A DNA stretch of 10,451 bases from an uncultured Nitrosomonadales bacterium (lineage in GTDB: Bacteria > Pseudomonadota > Gammaproteobacteria > Burkholderiales > Gallionellaceae), in assembly GCA_903934275.1 (NCBI GenBank), contig CAIZNF010000189.1, forward strand, positions 1 to 10,451, in the 5' to 3' direction. Every line of letters begins with the position of its first letter. Within the stretch, counting starts at the first letter, position 1. The position numbers and the translations under genes were made by a program. Below are positions 3,244-10,262 of the stretch, piece after piece. The notes below the pieces were generated by a model. The model did not search any database. It saw only the letters and a program-made list of their open reading frames with translations, and had not been told where the DNA came from.

Positions 3244-4392
3244 ATGTTCTCCGCACAAGACAGCCTATGGATGGCGCAGGCGTTGCGACTGGCGGAGCGC
3301 GGGCTGTACACCACCAGCCCCAACCCGCGCGTCGGCTGCGTGCTGGTGCGCGATGGCAGCGTCGTTGGTGAAGGCTGGCACGAACGCGCCGGTGAACCAC
3401 ATGCAGAACCCCATGCGCTGCAAGCAGCCGGTAATGCGGCGCGCGGCGCAACCGCCTATGTGACGCTGGAGCCATGCAGCCATCATGGCCGCACCCCGCC
3501 CTGTGCCGATGCGCTGATAGAAGCAAAAGTGGCGCGCGTGGTGGTGGCGATGCAAGACCCCAATCCGCAGGTGGCAGGTCAGGGCGTTGCCAGACTGCGC
3601 GCGGCTGGCATCGAAGTGGAATGCGGCCTGATGGAAGCGGCGGCGCGTGAATTAAATATCGGCTTCTTTGCGCGCATGACGCGCGGCACTCCGTGGGTAA
3701 GAAGCAAGATCGCGATGAGTCTGGACGGGCGCACCGCGCTCAACAACGGCGCGAGCAAATGGATCACCGGCGACGCGGCGCGGCAGGATGTGCAGCATTG
3801 GCGCGCGCGTTCCTGCGCCGTATTGACGGGTATCGGCACCGTGCTGGTGGACGACCCGCTGCTAAATGTACGTGAAAGCACGCTGACCTCTTCTGCGGAG
3901 CACATGCCTTCTCCTCCCCTGACAAGGGGAGGCCGGGAGGGGTTGCGTCAGCCGTTGCGTGCGGTAGTGGATAGCCGTTTGCAAATGCTGCCGAGCGCGC
4001 GTCTGTTGCAACAGCATGGAGCAGTAATTTATACCGCCATACAAGACGCGCAAAAGATCGCTGCATTGGAACAGGCCGGTGCGCGTGTCGTCGTGCTGCC
4101 GGATACGGACAGCCAAGTGGATATCGCCGCTGTGCTGCACAACCTCGCCACGCAGGGCTGCAACGAAGTGCTGGTTGAAGCGGGCAGCAAATTGAATGGG
4201 GCCTTGCTGAAGGCCGGTCTGGTGGATGAGCTGGTGCTGTATCTCGCGCCGCAGTTGCTCGGCGACATGGCGCGCGGCATGGCGCAACTGGGCGAGTTGA
4301 CCAGCCTGGATCAGCGCGTCAATTTGGAATGGAATGATGTGCGCCATGTCGGCAAGGATTTGCGCATCGTGGCGCGAGTAAAAAAAGGATAA
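3244..4392 (+). CDS. ribD: bifunctional riboflavin deaminase/reductase RibD
   Basis: RibD carries out two successive cytoplasmic steps of riboflavin synthesis: deamination of the GTP cyclohydrolase II product and NADPH-dependent reduction of its ribose. The deaminase domain (about 1-145) has HAE at 53-55 and PCSHHGRTPPC at 77-87, giving zinc ligands His53, Cys78 and Cys87 and catalytic Glu55. The reductase domain (about 148-382) shows WVRSKIAMSLDGRTA, GIGTVLVDDP, RQPLRAVVDSR and EVLVEAGSKLNGALL. At 382 residues it is slightly long. The excess lies between NVR (210) and RQPLR, where a GC-rich palindrome encodes residues 223-234 (SPPLTRGGREGL) that look foreign to the family. GCAGG eight nt before the ATG supports the start. 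ribE begins two nt after its stop, and the ribE Shine-Dalgarno lies in its last codons. Confidence 0.97.
   Translation: MFSAQDSLWMAQALRLAERGLYTTSPNPRVGCVLVRDGSVVGEGWHERAGEPHAEPHALQAAGNAARGATAYVTLEPCSHHGRTPPCADALIEAKVARVVVAMQDPNPQVAGQGVARLRAAGIEVECGLMEAAARELNIGFFARMTRGTPWVRSKIAMSLDGRTALNNGASKWITGDAARQDVQHWRARSCAVLTGIGTVLVDDPLLNVRESTLTSSAEHMPSPPLTRGGREGLRQPLRAVVDSRLQMLPSARLLQQHGAVIYTAIQDAQKIAALEQAGARVVVLPDTDSQVDIAAVLHNLATQGCNEVLVEAGSKLNGALLKAGLVDELVLYLAPQLLGDMARGMAQLGELTSLDQRVNLEWNDVRHVGKDLRIVARVKKG
3911..3945 (+). repeat. palindromic repeat unit inserted in ribD
   Basis: CCTCCCCT (3913-3920), a GACA loop and AGGGGAGG (3925-3932) form a perfect 8-bp hairpin, followed by CCGGGAGGGGTTG. The whole 35-bp block recurs in thiL at 8170-8204 with one change in the loop (GACA to GATA). 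In ribD it is read as SPPLTRGGREGL; in thiL it is read in another frame. The flanking Ser/Thr-rich codons (ESTLTSSAEH) may also be extra. A mobile REP-like unit is the simplest explanation. Confidence 0.8.
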
Positions 4393-4394
4393 AC

Positions 4395-4994
4395 ATGTTC
4401 AGCGGCATCATCGCAGATGTAGGCATCATCACCCGTGCGGATGACCGCAACGGCGGCCTGCGCCTTTCGGTTTCAACCAAGGCACTCGGCATGGACGACG
4501 TGCAACTCGGCGACAGCATCGCGGTAAACGGCGTATGCCTCACCGTGGTTGAGAAAAAAAGCGAAATTTTCACCGTCGATGTTTCACGCGAGACCTTGAA
4601 TTGCACCGTCGGGCTGGAAGTGCAGGGCGCGCGCGTCAATCTGGAAAAGGCGCTGCGTCTGGCGGATCGGCTGGGCGGGCATATGGTCAGCGGTCATGTG
4701 GATGGCGTGGGCGAAGTGGTCGCGTTCACCGACATCGGCGAAAGCTGGAAACTGGTGGCGCGTGCGCCGCAGGCGCTGGCCAAGTACATTGCGGTGAAAG
4801 GCTCGATCACCATCAACGGCGTGAGCCTCACCGTGAATGAGGTGGATGGCGCGGCGTTCAGCGTCAACCTGATCCCTCACACGCTGGCGGTAACCACGCT
4901 CTCCGACTTGCGTGCGGGGGCAAAAGTGAATCTGGAGATCGATTTGATTGCGCGCTATGTGGAGCGCATGATGCAGGCTGAAAGAGAGGGCTGA
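4395..4994 (+). CDS. ribE: riboflavin synthase, alpha chain
   Basis: Riboflavin synthase dismutates two molecules of 6,7-dimethyl-8-ribityllumazine into riboflavin and the pyrimidinedione that RibH recycles; the usual form is a cytoplasmic trimer. The 199-residue product has the typical two tandem lumazine-binding barrels. The first begins MFSGIIADVGI and contains GVCLTVVEK and VSRETLNCT; the second begins near GGHMVSGHVDGVG (about 94) and contains GVSLTVNEV and SVNLIPHTLAVTTL. The C-terminal helix IDLIARYVERM is also typical. AAGGA (4385-4389) precedes the ATG by five nt, inside the end of ribD, which implies translational coupling. The same protein is called RibC in some species. Confidence 0.97.
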   Translation: MFSGIIADVGIITRADDRNGGLRLSVSTKALGMDDVQLGDSIAVNGVCLTVVEKKSEIFTVDVSRETLNCTVGLEVQGARVNLEKALRLADRLGGHMVSGHVDGVGEVVAFTDIGESWKLVARAPQALAKYIAVKGSITINGVSLTVNEVDGAAFSVNLIPHTLAVTTLSDLRAGAKVNLEIDLIARYVERMMQAEREG

Positions 4995-5022
4995 AAGGGA
5001 TGGCTAAAATGGATGGATTGAA

Positions 5023-6114
5023 ATGACCGATATAGCACCGATACAAGACATCATTGCCGAAATCCGCGCTGGGCGGATGGTGGTACTGGTGGACGAGGAA
5101 GAACGCGAAAACGAAGGCGATCTGGTGTTCGCCGCCGAATTTACTACGCCGGAAAAGATCAATTTCATGGCCAAGCACGGGCGCGGGCTGATCTGCCTGA
5201 CGCTGACCGAGGCGCATTGCAAACAGCTCAATCTTCCGCTGATGGTGCGCGATAACGGTTCGCCGCTGGGCACCAATTTCACGTTGTCCATCGAGGCGGC
5301 GAGCGGCGTGACTACCGGCATTTCGGCAGCGGATCGTTCGCGCACCATCCAAGCTGCGGCGGGCAAGAATGCCAAACCTGCGGACATCGTGCAACCCGGT
5401 CATATCTTCCCGCTGATGGCGCAGAACGGCGGGGTGCTGGTGCGCGCCGGGCATACCGAAGCGGGCTGCGATCTGGCGCAACTGGCCGGGTTGATGCCCG
5501 CTACGGTGATTTGTGAAATCCTCAAGGACGACGGCGAGATGGCGCGGCTGCCAGACCTGATCGAGTTTGCCAAGTTACATGGTTTGAAGATCGGCACCAT
5601 CGCCAGCCTGATCGAGTATCGCAGCCACAACGAAAAGCTGGTCGAGCGAGTGGCGCAGCGCAGCGTGCAGACGGCTTATGGCCCGTTCGATTTATTCAGT
5701 TATGTGGACAAGACGACGCAGCGCACCCATCTGGCTTTGTTGAAGGGTGAGATTAGCCCCGACGCAGAGACTCTGGTGCGTGTGCATGAGCCTCTGTCGG
5801 TGATGGATTTTCTGGAGCAGGTCGATTATTCGCATTCCACCAGCGTGCATGACGCGCTGAAAAAAATCAGCCAGTCCCCATGCGGGGTGCTGGTGCTGAT
5901 GCATCACGGCGAAACATCGCAGGATTTGCTGGCGCGCGCCGCAACCACGCCGGGAACGCATCAGCGTTGGGATCCGCGCAGCTACGGCATTGGCGCGCAA
6001 ATACTGCGCGACCTCAATGTTGGTAAAATGCGTCTGATAGCCACGCCGCACAAGATGCCGAGCGTGGTCGGTTTTGGTCTTGAAGTGGTGGGCTATTGTC
6101 AGGTTAAGTCGTAA
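5023..6114 (+). CDS. ribBA: 3,4-dihydroxy-2-butanone-4-phosphate synthase with degenerate GTP cyclohydrolase II-like domain (RibBX type)
   Basis: The N-terminal domain (about 1-205) is RibB, which makes 3,4-dihydroxy-2-butanone 4-phosphate from ribulose 5-phosphate. It has the acidic metal-binding motif DEEERENEGD (24-33), SIEAASGVTTGISAADR (89-105), GHIFPL with His127, and RAGHTEAGCDL with the catalytic-site His144. The C-terminal part (about 210-363) is related to GTP cyclohydrolase II and keeps DPRSYGIGAQIL and a GFGLEV end. It lacks the HSECLTGD...RCDCG zinc-site cysteines; VRVHEPLSVMDFLEQ stands in their place. It is therefore unlikely to be a cyclohydrolase. This matches the RibBX variant described in Proteobacteria, where the X domain has no demonstrated cyclohydrolase activity. 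A true RibA must be encoded elsewhere. GGATGG six nt upstream supports the start. The 122 nt down to ribH hold two repeat hairpins. Confidence 0.95.
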   Translation: MTDIAPIQDIIAEIRAGRMVVLVDEEERENEGDLVFAAEFTTPEKINFMAKHGRGLICLTLTEAHCKQLNLPLMVRDNGSPLGTNFTLSIEAASGVTTGISAADRSRTIQAAAGKNAKPADIVQPGHIFPLMAQNGGVLVRAGHTEAGCDLAQLAGLMPATVICEILKDDGEMARLPDLIEFAKLHGLKIGTIASLIEYRSHNEKLVERVAQRSVQTAYGPFDLFSYVDKTTQRTHLALLKGEISPDAETLVRVHEPLSVMDFLEQVDYSHSTSVHDALKKISQSPCGVLVLMHHGETSQDLLARAATTPGTHQRWDPRSYGIGAQILRDLNVGKMRLIATPHKMPSVVGFGLEVVGYCQVKS

Positions 6115-6124
6115 GGGGCAATCG

Positions 6125-6141
6125 GGTGGGCTTTGCCCACC
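6125..6141 (+). repeat. short perfect hairpin in the ribBX-ribH gap
   Basis: GGTGGGC, a TTT loop and GCCCACC form a perfect 7-bp stem 10 nt after the ribBX stop. This sequence is of the kind found as short dispersed repeats in proteobacterial intergenic DNA. It has no U tract (CATGGC follows), so it is not a convincing terminator. Confidence 0.55.
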
Positions 6142-6165
6142 ATGGCTACATGGCACAGTAGAGCG

Positions 6166-6215
6166 CCCTCTCCCCAACCCTCGCCCACTTGTGGGAGAGG
6201 GGCTAGGGGAGAGGG
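6166..6215 (+). repeat. GC-rich palindromic element upstream of ribH
   Basis: Two imperfectly complementary arms, CCCTCTCCCC...CCCAC (6166-6188) and GTGGGAGAGGGG...GAGAGGG (6191-6215), meet at a TT loop and form a hairpin of about 50 nt. The element shares CCCCAACCCTC and GGGAGAGGGG with the first palindromic insertion in thiL (7549-7559 and 7627-7637), so both belong to one family. Here it sits between genes, ending about 11 nt before the ribH Shine-Dalgarno. In the mRNA it could stabilise or separate the ribBX and ribH segments; that role is inference. Confidence 0.75.
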
Positions 6216-6236
6216 TAAAAATTTGAAGAGGCAGAC

Positions 6237-6689
6237 ATGAAAGAAATCGAAAAGAATCTCAACGGCAGCGGGCTGCGCATCGGCATAGTGCAAAGCCGTT
6301 TTAATCCCGAAGTATGCGAAGGCTTACTGGGCGAGTGTCGCGCCCGGTTGGTGCAGCAGGGCGTGGATGAAGATGACATCACACTGGCAACCGTGCCGGG
6401 CGCGCTGGAAATTCCGCTGGTGCTGCTGCATATGGCGGAAAGCGAAAAGTTTGACGCGCTGATTGCGCTGGGTGCGGTGATACGCGGCGACACCTATCAT
6501 TTCGAGGTGGTATCGAATGAGTCGGCGCGCTGCGTGAACGAGGTACAGCTGGCGTGCGGCGTGCCGGTTGCCAATGCGATTCTCACCACCGATACCGATG
6601 AACAGGCGATTGCGCGCATGCACGTCAAGGGCAGTGAAGCCGCACTGGTGGCGATTGAAATGGCCAACCTGCTGCGTGACTTGGCATGA
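6237..6689 (+). CDS. ribH: 6,7-dimethyl-8-ribityllumazine synthase
   Basis: Lumazine synthase joins the RibB product with the RibD-pathway pyrimidine to give 6,7-dimethyl-8-ribityllumazine, the substrate of RibE. It usually assembles as pentamers or 60-mer capsids in the cytoplasm. The 150-residue product has VQSRFNPEV (18-26), the substrate-loop PGALEIP (54-60), and [22 protein letters not shown] with catalytic His88. [11 protein letters not shown] (114-124) matches the family's ribityl/phosphate-binding region. AAGAGG five nt before the ATG supports the start. Its TGA overlaps the nusB ATG (ATGA), so nusB translation is probably coupled. It is separated from ribBX by 122 nt with two repeat hairpins but remains in the same direction. 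Confidence 0.97.
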
Positions 6690-7168
6690 GCAACTTGGGC
6701 ACGAACAACCCGGCTGCAGAAAATGAAGTAAAAAAACCGCCAAACAGAAGCCCGCGTCACCGCGCGCGCGAACTTGCGTTGCAGGGCGTTTACCAATGGC
6801 GCGTCACGGCAGGAGAAGATGAGCAAATAGAAAAACAGATCCACGCCGAGAAAAATCTCGGCCGATACGACAAAGATTTGTTTTCAAAATTGCTGCGCGG
6901 CACGTTGAGTAGACACGCTGACCTTGAAGTGCTGCTCTCCCCATATCTGGACAGGCCGCTTGCCGAACTCAGCCCGGTGGAATTTGCCGTTCTGATGCTG
7001 GGCGCATTTGAATTATCGCAACACCTCGAAGTACCTTACAGAGTAGTCATCAACGAAGCGGTTGAGCTGGCCAAAACCTTTGGCGGCACCGACGGCCACA
7101 AATATGTCAACGGCGTGCTCGACAAGCTGGCAGCGCAATTGCGGGCGGTTGAAGTGGCGGCGAAATAG
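6686..7168 (+). CDS. nusB: transcription antitermination factor NusB
   Basis: NusB pairs with NusE (ribosomal protein S10), binds boxA RNA, and keeps RNA polymerase processive on rRNA operons. The product is 160 residues, slightly longer than the E. coli protein because of a polar N-terminal tail of about 20 residues ([19 protein letters not shown]). The helical core follows: [17 protein letters not shown], the [14 protein letters not shown] segment, [17 protein letters not shown], and [34 protein letters not shown], which is the most diagnostic block. The start overlaps the ribH stop by four bases. The ribH-nusB order is common in proteobacteria. The 78 nt after it are largely a dispersed repeat that runs up to thiL. 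Confidence 0.97.
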
Positions 7169-7189
7169 AACTTGGTCGTTAGATAATTC

Positions 7190-7241
7190 GTAGGTCGGGC
7201 TCTGCCTGACAGTAATATGCGGCGGGTGGAACCCGCCCTAC
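7190..7241 (+). repeat. dispersed inverted-repeat element abutting thiL
   Basis: The ends GTAGGTCGGGC (7190-7200) and ACCCGCCCTAC (7231-7241) are inverted copies matching at 9 of 11 positions. Inside, GGCGGGT-GGA-ACCCGCC (7221-7237) is a perfect hairpin. GTAGG-plus-CGGG modules of this kind occur widely as short intergenic repeats in proteobacteria. It ends five nt before the thiL ATG and occupies the place where a Shine-Dalgarno would be. Confidence 0.7.
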
Positions 7242-7246
7242 AAACC

Positions 7247-8422
7247 ATGTCCGAATTTGATCTGATCCGCCGCTACTTTACTCGCGCCACACCCAGCGCG
7301 CTGCTCGGCGTGGGCGACGATGCCGCGCTGCTGCAAGCGAGTGCAGGCAATGTGCTGGTGGTATCCAGCGACATGCTGGTATGTGGCACACACTTTCTTC
7401 CCGATGCCGACCCGTTTATGCTGGGGCACAAGACTCTCGCGGTAAACCTGTCCGACATGGCGGCGATGGGTGCTGTGCCGCGCTGGGCGACGCTGGCCAT
7501 CGCGCTGCCCCTCGTTCATGGCAAAGAAACAAGCCATGAACGCCCCCACCCCAACCCTCTGGGTGAAACACCTAGCCATTCGACTAGGCTGCAAACGACC
7601 GCAGCCAAGTCGCTGGTTACCCCGGAGGGAGAGGGGGCAAACGAATCGCTGTGCGAACCTATGTTTACCGTGGACGAAACCTGGCTGGCACAATTCAGCG
7701 CGGGGTTTTTCGCGCTGGCGCAGCAGCATGGCGTGGAATTGGTCGGCGGCGACACCACGCGCGGACCGCTCAATTTATGCGTGACCATAATCGGCGAAGT
7801 GCCCGCACAGCAGGCGTTGCGCCGCAGCGGCGCGCAAATTGGCGATGAAATATGGGTATCTGGCTGTCTGGGCGATGCGGCGTTGGCGCTGGCGCATCTG
7901 CAAGGCCGCATCACATTGGACGCGATGGAGTTCGCCACTTGTGCATCCGCGTTGCATCAGCCGCAGCCGCGCGTGGCACTGGGGCTGGCGCTGCGCGGTA
8001 TCGCCAGCAGCGCAATCGATGTTTCCGACGGATTGCTCGCCGACCTCGGGCACATTCTTGAGGCTTCGCAGGTGGGCGCGGAGATTGAGTTTGCGGCGTT
8101 ACCGCTGTCAGCCATGTTACGGGCGTGCCTAACCCCCCTCAATCCCCCCTTGTCAGGGGGGAAGCATAACTCCTCCCCTGATAAGGGGAGGCCGGGAGGG
8201 GTTGGGTTGCTTCAACAATGCATCCTGTGCGGCGGCGACGATTACGAATTGTGTTTCACCGCACCAGTCGCGCGCCATACGAATCTGTTAAGTATCGCAA
8301 CACGGCTTGACCTACCGCTGACCTGTATCGGAAAAGTTGTTGCAGGGCGCGGCTGTATCGTGCACGATGCGTCGGGTGACCCTATCAATATCGAGGCCTG
8401 CGGTTATGACCACTTCCGGTGA
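7247..8422 (+). CDS. thiL: thiamine-monophosphate kinase with two in-frame palindrome insertions
   Basis: ThiL phosphorylates thiamine monophosphate to thiamine diphosphate with ATP in the cytoplasm. From the ATG at 7247 (MSEFDLIRRYF, the family's usual N-terminus) the product has 391 residues against about 325 in E. coli. Conserved blocks remain in order: GVGDDAALL (21-29), HFLPDADP, AVNLSDMAAMGA (65-76), VGGDTTRGPL (166-175), AIDVSDGLLADLGHI (256-270), GGDDYELCFT (329-338) and a C-terminal GYDHF. The surplus is two blocks. Residues about 89-141 replace a single residue between LP and VDETWL of the E. coli alignment, and about 22 residues lie near 297-320 before the GGDDYELCF block. Both blocks are encoded by GC-rich palindromes. 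No stop or frameshift is present, so the gene is probably functional. No Shine-Dalgarno is visible. Its end overlaps pgpA by 17 nt. Confidence 0.95.
   Translation: MSEFDLIRRYFTRATPSALLGVGDDAALLQASAGNVLVVSSDMLVCGTHFLPDADPFMLGHKTLAVNLSDMAAMGAVPRWATLAIALPLVHGKETSHERPHPNPLGETPSHSTRLQTTAAKSLVTPEGEGANESLCEPMFTVDETWLAQFSAGFFALAQQHGVELVGGDTTRGPLNLCVTIIGEVPAQQALRRSGAQIGDEIWVSGCLGDAALALAHLQGRITLDAMEFATCASALHQPQPRVALGLALRGIASSAIDVSDGLLADLGHILEASQVGAEIEFAALPLSAMLRACLTPLNPPLSGGKHNSSPDKGRPGGVGLLQQCILCGGDDYELCFTAPVARHTNLLSIATRLDLPLTCIGKVVAGRGCIVHDASGDPINIEACGYDHFR
7514..7638 (+). repeat. long palindromic insertion inside thiL (first)
   Basis: It opens with a perfect 9-bp inverted repeat, GTTCATGGC (7514-7522) and GCCATGAAC (7533-7541). 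From 7541 to 7638 a second, nested stem-loop follows. Its outer arms are GCCCCCACCCCAACCCTC and GGGAGAGGGGGC. Inner arms are TAGCCA/TGGTTA with one wobble pair, then CGACT-A-GGCTGC (7581-7592) pairing with GCAGCC-A-AGTCG (7601-7612) around an 8-nt loop. It encodes about residues 90-131 of ThiL. The outer arms share sequence with the intergenic element at 6166-6215. Confidence 0.75.
8131..8204 (+). repeat. inverted doublet of palindromic units inside thiL (second)
   Basis: Unit one is AACCCCCCTC followed by the hairpin TCCCCCCT-TGTC-AGGGGGGA (8143-8162). Unit two lies in the opposite orientation at 8170-8204: CCTCCCCT-GATA-AGGGGAGG followed by CCGGGAGGGGTTG. The outer ends AACCCCCCTC and GGGAGGGGTT are near-inverted copies, so the pair is arranged head to head like REP doublets. 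Unit two is 34/35 identical to the ribD copy at 3911-3945. The doublet encodes roughly residues 295-320 of ThiL. Confidence 0.8.
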
Positions 8423-9625: not shown

Positions 9626-9877
9626 ATGTTCAGCAACCGCTTCCAGCGCCATGTAGTCATTTCCGAGCATGCGAAAATGCGCATGAAGGAACGTGACATC
9701 AGCGAAGCGATGCTGCTGGAAGTTATCGATTTGGGCGAGACGCGTTACAAGGACGCAACACATCTGTGGGCGTTCAAAGAGTTCCCGGCACGGCATGACA
9801 ACTTGCTATGCGCAGTGTTGGTGTTGGAAGATAGCGTGGTCATTAAGACGGTCATGCACCATTTCACGATTTTGTAG
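9626..9877 (+). CDS. DUF4258 family protein, putative RelE-like toxin
   Basis: The 83-residue protein matches the DUF4258 pattern. ISEHAKMRMKERDIS (12-26) has the His/Arg/Glu-rich helix typical of the family, followed by MLLEVIDLGE, then a beta-rich C-terminal half (LLCAVLVLEDSVVIKTVMHHF). DUF4258 proteins are small, with a proposed relationship to the RelE/ParE toxin fold; activity is not established for most. The next gene, DUF2283, starts nine nt after its stop, the usual partner and order. Toxin-antitoxin function is inference. A well-spaced promoter places the likely transcription start at the ATG, and no Shine-Dalgarno is visible, so translation may be leaderless and weak. An alternative is a non-toxic small regulatory or DNA-associated protein. 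Confidence 0.8.
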   Translation: MFSNRFQRHVVISEHAKMRMKERDISEAMLLEVIDLGETRYKDATHLWAFKEFPARHDNLLCAVLVLEDSVVIKTVMHHFTIL

Positions 9878-9881
9878 GAGG
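9875..9881 (+). promoter_or_regulatory. strong Shine-Dalgarno of the DUF2283 gene
   Basis: TAGGAGG ends five nt before the ATG at 9887 and includes the TAG stop codon of the DUF4258 gene. It is the strongest ribosome site in this part of the window and contrasts with the absence of one before the upstream partner. That would favour higher output of the second protein, as expected for an antitoxin. Confidence 0.75.
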
Positions 9882-9886
9882 TTGCC

Positions 9887-10084
9887 ATGCACACCACTTA
9901 TTTCGATAAAGACGACATTCTTGTCATCAGGCTTTCGGATAAACCGATAGCCCGCGAAGTGTCGCAAAATTGGAATACGCATATCAGCTACGCAGAAGAT
10001 GGCAGCATGGTTGAAGTGGTGTTGCTGGAGGCTCGCGCCAACGGCGCTTACCCGCTGGAAGTTCAACATGCGCGGGTTGCCTGA
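9887..10084 (+). CDS. DUF2283 family protein, putative antitoxin partner
   Basis: The 65-residue product follows the DUF2283 pattern: an N-terminal YFDKDDILVIRLSDKPIAREV (about 5-25), where family members have a Y-D-x-x-x-D-x-L-x-I-x-L strand, then ISYAEDGSMVEVVLLEA (about 33-49), the paired D-E-D-G turn and closing strand. The family is small and of unknown biochemical role, and it often lies directly beside DUF4258 genes. Because of this pairing it is read here as the candidate antitoxin or cognate partner. No DNA-binding helix-turn-helix is obvious. A strong Shine-Dalgarno supports the start. No terminator is visible directly after the stop. Confidence 0.8.
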   Translation: MHTTYFDKDDILVIRLSDKPIAREVSQNWNTHISYAEDGSMVEVVLLEARANGAYPLEVQHARVA

Positions 10085-10196: not shown

Positions 10197-10262
10197 GCCC
10201 GGATGAAGCGCAACGTAATCCGGGAGCACCCGCCAGGGATTCCGGATTCCATTCATCCGGGC
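10197..10262 (+). repeat. dispersed inverted repeat (CCCGGATGAAGCGCAACGT type)
   Basis: The outer arms GCCCGGATGAA (10197-10207) and TTCATCCGGGC (10252-10262) are perfect 11-bp inverted copies. Internally CCCGGAT pairs with the ATCCGGG at 10218-10224. The GGATGAAGCGCAACGTAATCCGG core is a widespread proteobacterial intergenic repeat. It lies 112 nt after the DUF2283 stop. Possible roles as a 3' mRNA stabiliser or attenuator are inference. Confidence 0.75.

Follow-up and report, generated by a model that had tools for sequence, protein, structure and literature searches.

Introduction

Palindromic DNA elements that are inserted in frame into conserved protein genes and translated together with them have been described for Rickettsia, where several families of Rickettsia palindromic elements (RPEs) of 105–146 bp are presented as tolerated inserts (PMC2229807). 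In free-living bacteria, coding palindromes have been reported among the GTAG- and CGTC-tagged repetitive extragenic palindromes (REPs); according to that work (Di Nocera et al., 2013; PMC3733652) these short hairpins and their dimers are mostly extragenic, a minority is intragenic with many copies in DNA repair genes and some in tRNA synthetases, and in Xanthomonas recB different REPs have settled at approximately one position. Here, we analyzed a window of 10,451 nucleotides (contig CAIZNF010000189.1, C189) from an uncultured bacterium of the Gallionellaceae, in which a palindromic unit of 35 bp, termed F1, lies in two cofactor genes, ribD and thiL (thiamine-phosphate kinase). The source genome, G000, is a 3.33-Mb metagenome-assembled genome (MAG) of 722 contigs with 93.9% completeness and 5.7% contamination. 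The MutS of G016, a genome of the same genus, is identical to that of the Nitrosomonadales MAG JACREB01, in keeping with a Gallionellaceae-like genus. F1 is most probably a non-autonomous, REP/REPIN-like hairpin element, and its copies in RibD and ThiL would be tolerated survivors.

Results

The two 35-mers of the window (Table 1) differ in a single base, C or T at unit position 13 in the loop, and in both copies five of the six frames are open while plus frame 0 is stopped (TGA; TGA TAA in thiL), the two genes using the two open plus frames. In these points an earlier note on this DNA was right, and its claim that DNA rather than protein was copied is supported. Its single palindromic unit was accurate in part: the 35-bp unit is real, but in thiL it makes up only one half, the right one, of an inverted doublet of 73 bp with the ends AACCCC...GGGGTT. 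A single long hairpin is predicted for the doublet (−48.3 kcal/mol, z −4.1 compared to shuffles); by itself, the 35-mer shows no stability beyond that of its own shuffles (z −0.74). The inverted doublet of about 73 bp with ends AACC...GGTT is the commonest form of F1, although lone right halves occur too, and in ribD only the right half was recognised. The partner half was located upstream (5', within 80 bases) in 94 of 144 unique-context copies and downstream in 3. The two halves are unlike each other (left, e.g., AACCCCCTCCANCTCCCCCTTGTCAGGGGGAG; right, CTCCTCCCCTGACAAGGGGAGGCTGGGAGGGGTT), and the consensus of the 144 copies has the ends CTCCTCC and GGGGTT.

With RPEs, F1 has in common that it lies in frame in conserved protein genes, that several families of such palindromes occur and that it would be translated as a tolerated insert, which supports, as regards behaviour, the resemblance put forward in the earlier note; it differs in length, since the RPEs as described (PMC2229807) exceed both the 35-bp half and the 73-bp doublet, and in its host, which, judging from its relatives, is not obligately intracellular. 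F1 agrees with REPs in the broad sense (a palindromic unit of 20–40 bp that is present in many, chiefly extragenic copies and often as inverted dimers). In contrast to tagged REPs, its consensus carries neither GTAG at one end nor CGTC, its doublet consists of two unlike halves, and no REP-associated tyrosine transposase (RAYT) was found nearby; CGTC was seen at both ends of a different ThiL insert, that of genome G005. In REP doublets forming hairpins (REPINs), two inverted hairpin units are the unit of spread, and the F1 doublet is similar except that the RAYT link was not found for it. F1 also resembles miniature inverted-repeat transposable elements (MITEs) in being non-autonomous, with inverted ends and folding as one hairpin, but neither a target-site duplication nor a parent transposase was found, filled and empty loops differing by several host codons. 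Since Rickettsia and the REPs of free-living bacteria already provide examples of coding palindromes, the phenomenon itself is not new. As to the free-living type of genome pointed out in the earlier note, the non-intracellular host stands as probable, but coding palindromes in such bacteria had been published in 2013 (PMC3733652). What appears to be new is the untagged doublet, the nesting of a further hairpin element (F3, see below) and the repeated filling of the same enzyme loops by different palindromes across the genus, none of which was found described in the open-access literature searched; nor did these searches find coding palindromes reported for this clade.

The expectation that the family is genome-wide and present in relatives was borne out. 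In G000, the 34-mer occurs at 9 places (up to 3 mismatches) and the core CCCCTGANAAGGGG 15 times, as compared to 0 for the reversed-pattern control in both cases, and 29 of the 61 genus genomes drawn contain F1, at between 1 and 100 copies per genome (2 mismatches allowed; controls, 0). A scan of GTDB species genomes returned at least 124 exact copies in at least 115 stretches. The 80 titled stretches listed derive mostly from Gallionellaceae and other Nitrosomonadales, the others from Rhodocyclaceae, Geobacter, Desulfuromonadaceae, Thiothrix, Gammaproteobacteria and four Nomurabacteria/Parcubacteria bins. A Nomurabacteria bin (L129, 6684–7742, GC 0.37), whose contig may be mis-binned, carries an F1 doublet in frame within a dihydrouridine synthase gene (PF01207, 6.8e-62). 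In a viral collection, F1 was present in 12 stretches and F3 in 1. Judged from these sequences, F1 has been copied as DNA and, most probably, spread in this form both within and between genomes.

The position of F1 relative to genes was classified in a wide sample (124 copies, of which 11 edge and 7 low-GC copies were dropped, leaving 106) and a genus sample (130 events in 129 regions of 8 genomes, 2 edge events dropped, leaving 128), with in-frame calls made by a codon model and random points drawn from the regions fetched around F1 copies. F1 was in frame within genes in 39/128 genus copies as compared to 1427/3000 random points and in 16/106 copies of the wide sample as compared to 649/1500, i.e., coding copies were rarer than random points of the same regions in both samples. 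These in-gene counts are probably too low, because the classifier missed two known ThiL copies (G000 and G067). A family spreading through coding sequence, as suggested in the earlier note, is overstated: in-frame copies exist, but the majority is extragenic. All five open frames were used in the genus sample (+2, 15; +1, 11; −0, 9; −1, 4; −2, 1), the zero for the TGA frame +0 being by construction of the classifier. Of the 13 merged places in G000, those in ribD, thiL and C60 are in frame in genes, with the thiL copy, overlooked by the classifier, counted by homology; one place lies near a contig end.

The reading frames carrying F1 belong to conserved families. All 18 open reading frames (ORFs) scanned from the wide sample, namely the 16 called plus L159 and L175 from six near-threshold rows, matched NCBIfam families at E<1e-20; other near-threshold ORFs of 22–46 aa (L096, L110, L128) were left out of the scan. 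From the genus sample, 27 of 30 scanned ORFs matched at E<1e-40, a few of them under the curated cut-off, L294 and L383 matched Pfam domains, and the remaining one was L311; eight of nine unscanned ORFs matched scanned ones by BLAST, and the ninth, L321, appears to be the locus also sampled as L137. Hosts in the wide sample were MutS (4), MutL (3), Mfd (2), CysS (2) and, once each, MetG, ArgS, SucA, ApbE, PrmC, the pyruvate dehydrogenase (PDH) E2 component and an Opp-type permease. In the genus sample they were MutS (3), MutL (1), Mfd (2), UvrD (1), RecJ (2), MetH (3), CusA (3), GatB (2), CysS (2), PDH E2 (2) and single hosts including MurD, NuoG, AroA-Cmk, GcvT, MetG, SucA, PrmC and YbeY. Altogether, at least 25 different genes host F1. 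There is a strong impression of an excess of repair genes, in line with Di Nocera et al. (2013), which is not a tested statistic because loci overlap between the samples (apparently L137/L321, L162/L359 and L192/L356) and same-site copies may share descent.

In RibD, homologues were assessed among the best 120 of 7999 scored, with the loop unreadable in 18 of the 120. F1 in this loop was restricted to G000 among 29 loci compared (the others being 16 of the genus and 12 of other genera), and G007 and G018 carried a different insert there. The F1 insert, whole or modified, was present in ten or eleven others among the best 120 homologues (e.g., P0122, P0123, P0128 and P0137, 79–90% identical), and in P0125, judged by peptide, F3 is nested in it. 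Because it is common to several near relatives, the insert must be older than G000. It was confined to near relatives as far as we looked, and orthologues from distant species bearing the same peptide, which would have spoken against the earlier note, were not encountered. The presence/absence among orthologues predicted there was seen at both RibD and ThiL, but it is not clean, as filled loops lack several host codons; residues missing are GIETP in RibD and LHQRSGK in MutS. A 19-residue segment of the EPQLAIHEPKLGAHEIKAM type, by eye unlike F1, fills the same RibD loop in 17 of the 120 homologues (P0193–P0240, of which P0221 and P0226 are named Nitrotoga). The loop is also longer in the E. 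coli-type RibD 8dq9 than in empty relatives, so that it varies without palindromes too. The RibD structure model was weak (predicted local distance difference test score, pLDDT, 66.4), displayed the insert as low-confidence coil (209–234) and was not used as evidence.

ThiL could be read in 59 of 61 genus genomes (all except G003 and G014). Its site 2, between LR and LLQQCIL, was filled in 12 of the 59 genes by four palindrome families. The F1 doublet as in the window was found in G000, G016, G017 and G055, with F3 nested in the latter and in G016, where the left half is mostly lost; F1 in the opposite orientation in G018, G067 and G011; another doublet, read in the third frame, in G047; and a right half with F3 in G053. 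Other palindromes were GARASCPQISGQDARAPAN in G013, a C-rich one in G035 and a CGTC-ended dimer (CGTC...GACG, peptide SFPRRRES...SRLRGNDG) in G005. The site was counted as empty in 47/59 genes, 13 of these calls resting on length or one-piece alignment where the text pattern failed, and no palindrome was seen at site 2 in 12 other-genus loci. Among the best 120 of 7999 ThiL homologues, in a ranking that favours filled loops, site 2 was empty in 55, unread in 1 and longer in 64, including 19 of other kinds that were checked in part for palindromes. A second palindrome-derived insert, missed by the earlier note, occupies site 1, which is filled by the C-rich palindrome F2 in G000, G016, G008 and G055 and by another segment in G042; the truncated G057 gene does not extend to this site. 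When mapped on a ThiL tree that was computed from 58 rows with insert columns removed (G057 omitted, and the G047 doublet labelled as a single unit), site 2 takes 9 changes to explain and site 1 takes 4; the 9 changes are not read as 9 insertions because of possible recombination. The solved ThiL structure 3mcq aligns without both inserts. A structure model of the ThiL studied here was unusable (mean pLDDT 37.7) and was not taken as evidence.

A comparison of 30 MutS loci yielded a similar pattern. At site A (LLLA^GLAWL), F1 or its remains were present in 7 of 29 readable loci in two plus frames, and site B held inserts in 11 of 27 readable loci, mostly C-rich and of several kinds, one of them with F1. 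Small indels and partial duplications in MutS could shift the frame, so that a difference in frame is by itself no proof of independent insertion.

Concerning the host enzymes, dN/dS values of 0.16–0.21 for ribD (three pairs among G000, G016 and G017; 0.14–0.19 for pairs with G012) and 0.09–0.14 for the thiL core (six pairs) indicate purifying selection on both genes, which appear functional.

F3, the hairpin nested in F2 at ThiL site 1, has the architecture TGATGNAACNACTAGCCATTCGACTAGGC-tip-GCCAAGTCGCTGGTTA and was found in 53 of the 61 genus genomes, with 32 places in G000 and 0 controls. It measures 60–61 bases in 42 of 50 distinct copies with both ends; its outer stem is invariant, which is partly imposed by the search pattern, and an A-A mismatch is present in 42/42. 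The tip co-varies at one position (T-A 13, G-C 10, C-G 9, A-T 3 of 42; 7 unpaired). In F1-type hairpins, F3 recurs at one and the same boundary between stem and loop (L222, L270, L341 and thiL of G016); elsewhere it lies in the F2 loop in many cases and also in unrelated DNA. Searches of Rfam and the literature found no known family for F3, the only literature match to its core text being one unrelated aptamer paper. In L034, the F2/F3 palindrome matched two Rfam miRNA families, at 35.5 bits (gathering score 80, E 0.00014) and 23.2 bits (gathering score 90, E 0.65); both matches lie far under the gathering scores and were taken as chance hairpins. An origin from integron attC sites appears unlikely, as by eye F3 did not fit the consensus boxes. 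A second nested element, GCGAGCATCCGC...GCGGATTGCCTGC, was observed in F1-type loops of L139, L144 and the MutS of G070 (L484), its carriers being Gammaproteobacteria MAGs and one genus MutS.

Discussion

We propose that F1, which lies mostly between genes, is moved in trans by a transposase, perhaps a single-strand one. Selection would remove harmful insertions, and copies within genes would be kept only when one of the five open frames is used, the downstream frame is preserved and the receiving loop tolerates a Gly/Pro/Ser-rich linker. Several observations weigh against this. None of 34 fetched Y1_Tnp loci (best-scoring matches) contains F1, F2 or F3, and no F1 was found at G000's own Y1_Tnp loci; G034 and G047 hold 17 and 7 F1 copies without a Y1_Tnp match in assemblies that are 83% and 60% complete. 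Neither a target-site rule nor a duplication was found, with filled loops lacking approximately 2 to 8 host codons. Moreover, in 16 of 128 genus events the coding flanks are in one frame with a stop between them, a count in which gene ends and real breaks are unsorted. Finally, some filled-loop flanks are closer to each other than to the sister genome (G018 compared to G061), which suggests recombination of whole loops. The main route by which the loops spread might accordingly have been homologous recombination together with gene conversion and palindrome template switching, with few true insertions and with orientation and frame changed by flipping or partial duplication in place, a reading that we regard as the less likely one, despite being a serious competitor. 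It is favoured by P0021 and P0040, which, judged from peptides, have the same flanks and different half arrangements, by the common changed LLLAI flank and occasional partial unit duplications of filled MutS copies, and by inserts that diverge less than their genes: the site 1 inserts of G000 and G016 differ at 8/96 nt compared to a core proportion of synonymous differences (pS) of 0.34, and the site 2 inserts of G000 and G017 at 8/93 nt compared to 0.32. However, F1 is spread over its many different host genes, and four families, unrelated by eye, at ThiL site 2 (F1 and those of G013, G005 and G035) require separate insertions.

It is improbable that F1 belongs to the ordinary REPs and owes its mobility to a resident RAYT (Y1 HUH transposase). 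Its hairpin units occur in inverted pairs and Y1_Tnp matches exist in 52 of 61 genus genomes, but the GTAG tag is lacking, only 1 of at least 115 F1 stretches has a Y1-like ORF, and the 34 Y1 loci without F1 span 96 kb, as compared to 8 copies in 110 kb of the loci of ribD/thiL relatives, a set that inflates the comparison, these genes being hosts of F1. Retention of the insert peptide or mRNA hairpin for a function in the host enzymes would fit inserts that persist across several species and the frequency of repair and translation genes among the hosts; this is very unlikely in view of the unrelated peptides filling the same loop, the insert dN/dS of 0.85–2.7 (few sites) and the lack of inserts in most orthologues. 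The possibility that the similarity is a chance effect of low complexity or results from faulty assembly or contamination, for which the contamination of the G000 assembly could be invoked, is practically negligible and refuted by the same structures in many independent assemblies with 0 reversed controls.

Returning to F1 as a mobile hairpin element, it is quite possible, short of probable, that ThiL site 2, MutS sites A and B and probably loops in MetH and CysS are standing landing places where unrelated palindrome families enter, flip, nest and replace each other. A resident palindrome would then be a safe target for the next one, as for F3, which sits where stem and loop meet in F1 and F2, and the genus would re-edit the same loops while keeping the enzyme. 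With dozens of genomes and several elements, these loci represent a natural map of insert-tolerating sites in conserved enzymes, and the many filled and empty loops make both the movement of coding palindromes and the frequency of repair and tRNA-charging enzymes among their hosts testable.

Other features of the window

Besides ribD and thiL, the window encodes glyA, a riboflavin synthase gene, a ribBA-type gene, ribH, nusB, pgpA and others. Because ATG 7217 lies inside a GTAG...CTAC palindrome, the later start of thiL is probably the correct one.

Table 1. Coordinates of genes, inserts and palindromes in the window.
Feature	Position	Strand	Remarks
ribD	3244..4392	+	intact ORF
RibD loop, 24 residues (ESTLTSSAEHMPSPPLTRGGREGL)	3874..3945	+	5 residues in 66/120 best homologues
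F1 right-half unit in ribD	3911..3945	+	peptide PPLTRGGREGL, plus frame 2, codon phase 1
C-rich palindrome	6165..6216	.	extragenic, gap between ribBA-type gene and ribH; z −6.0 for 6159-6222
GTAG...CTAC palindrome	7190-7241		just 5' of thiL; contains ATG 7217
thiL	7217..8422	+	intact ORF; likely start 7247
ThiL site 1 insert	7511..7669	+	C-rich palindromic F2 (HERPHPNP...PEGEG) interrupted by F3; z −5.9 for 7541-7650
F3, 60-bp hairpin element	7560..7619	+	nested in F2 palindrome; absent from matching site in G016 and G008
F1 doublet in thiL site 2	8131..8203	+	left half 8131-8164, right half 8170-8203
F1 right-half unit in thiL	8170..8204	+	peptide SSPDKGRPGGV, plus frame 1, codon phase 2
Palindrome-rich extragenic block GCCCGGATGAAG...CATCCGGGC	10197-10262		further repeat type, by eye

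The contig start (1–60) is G-rich and of low complexity, perhaps an assembly end effect. A pair of small genes encoding DUF4258 and DUF2283 proteins lies at 9626–10081, which we take to be possibly toxin-antitoxin-like.

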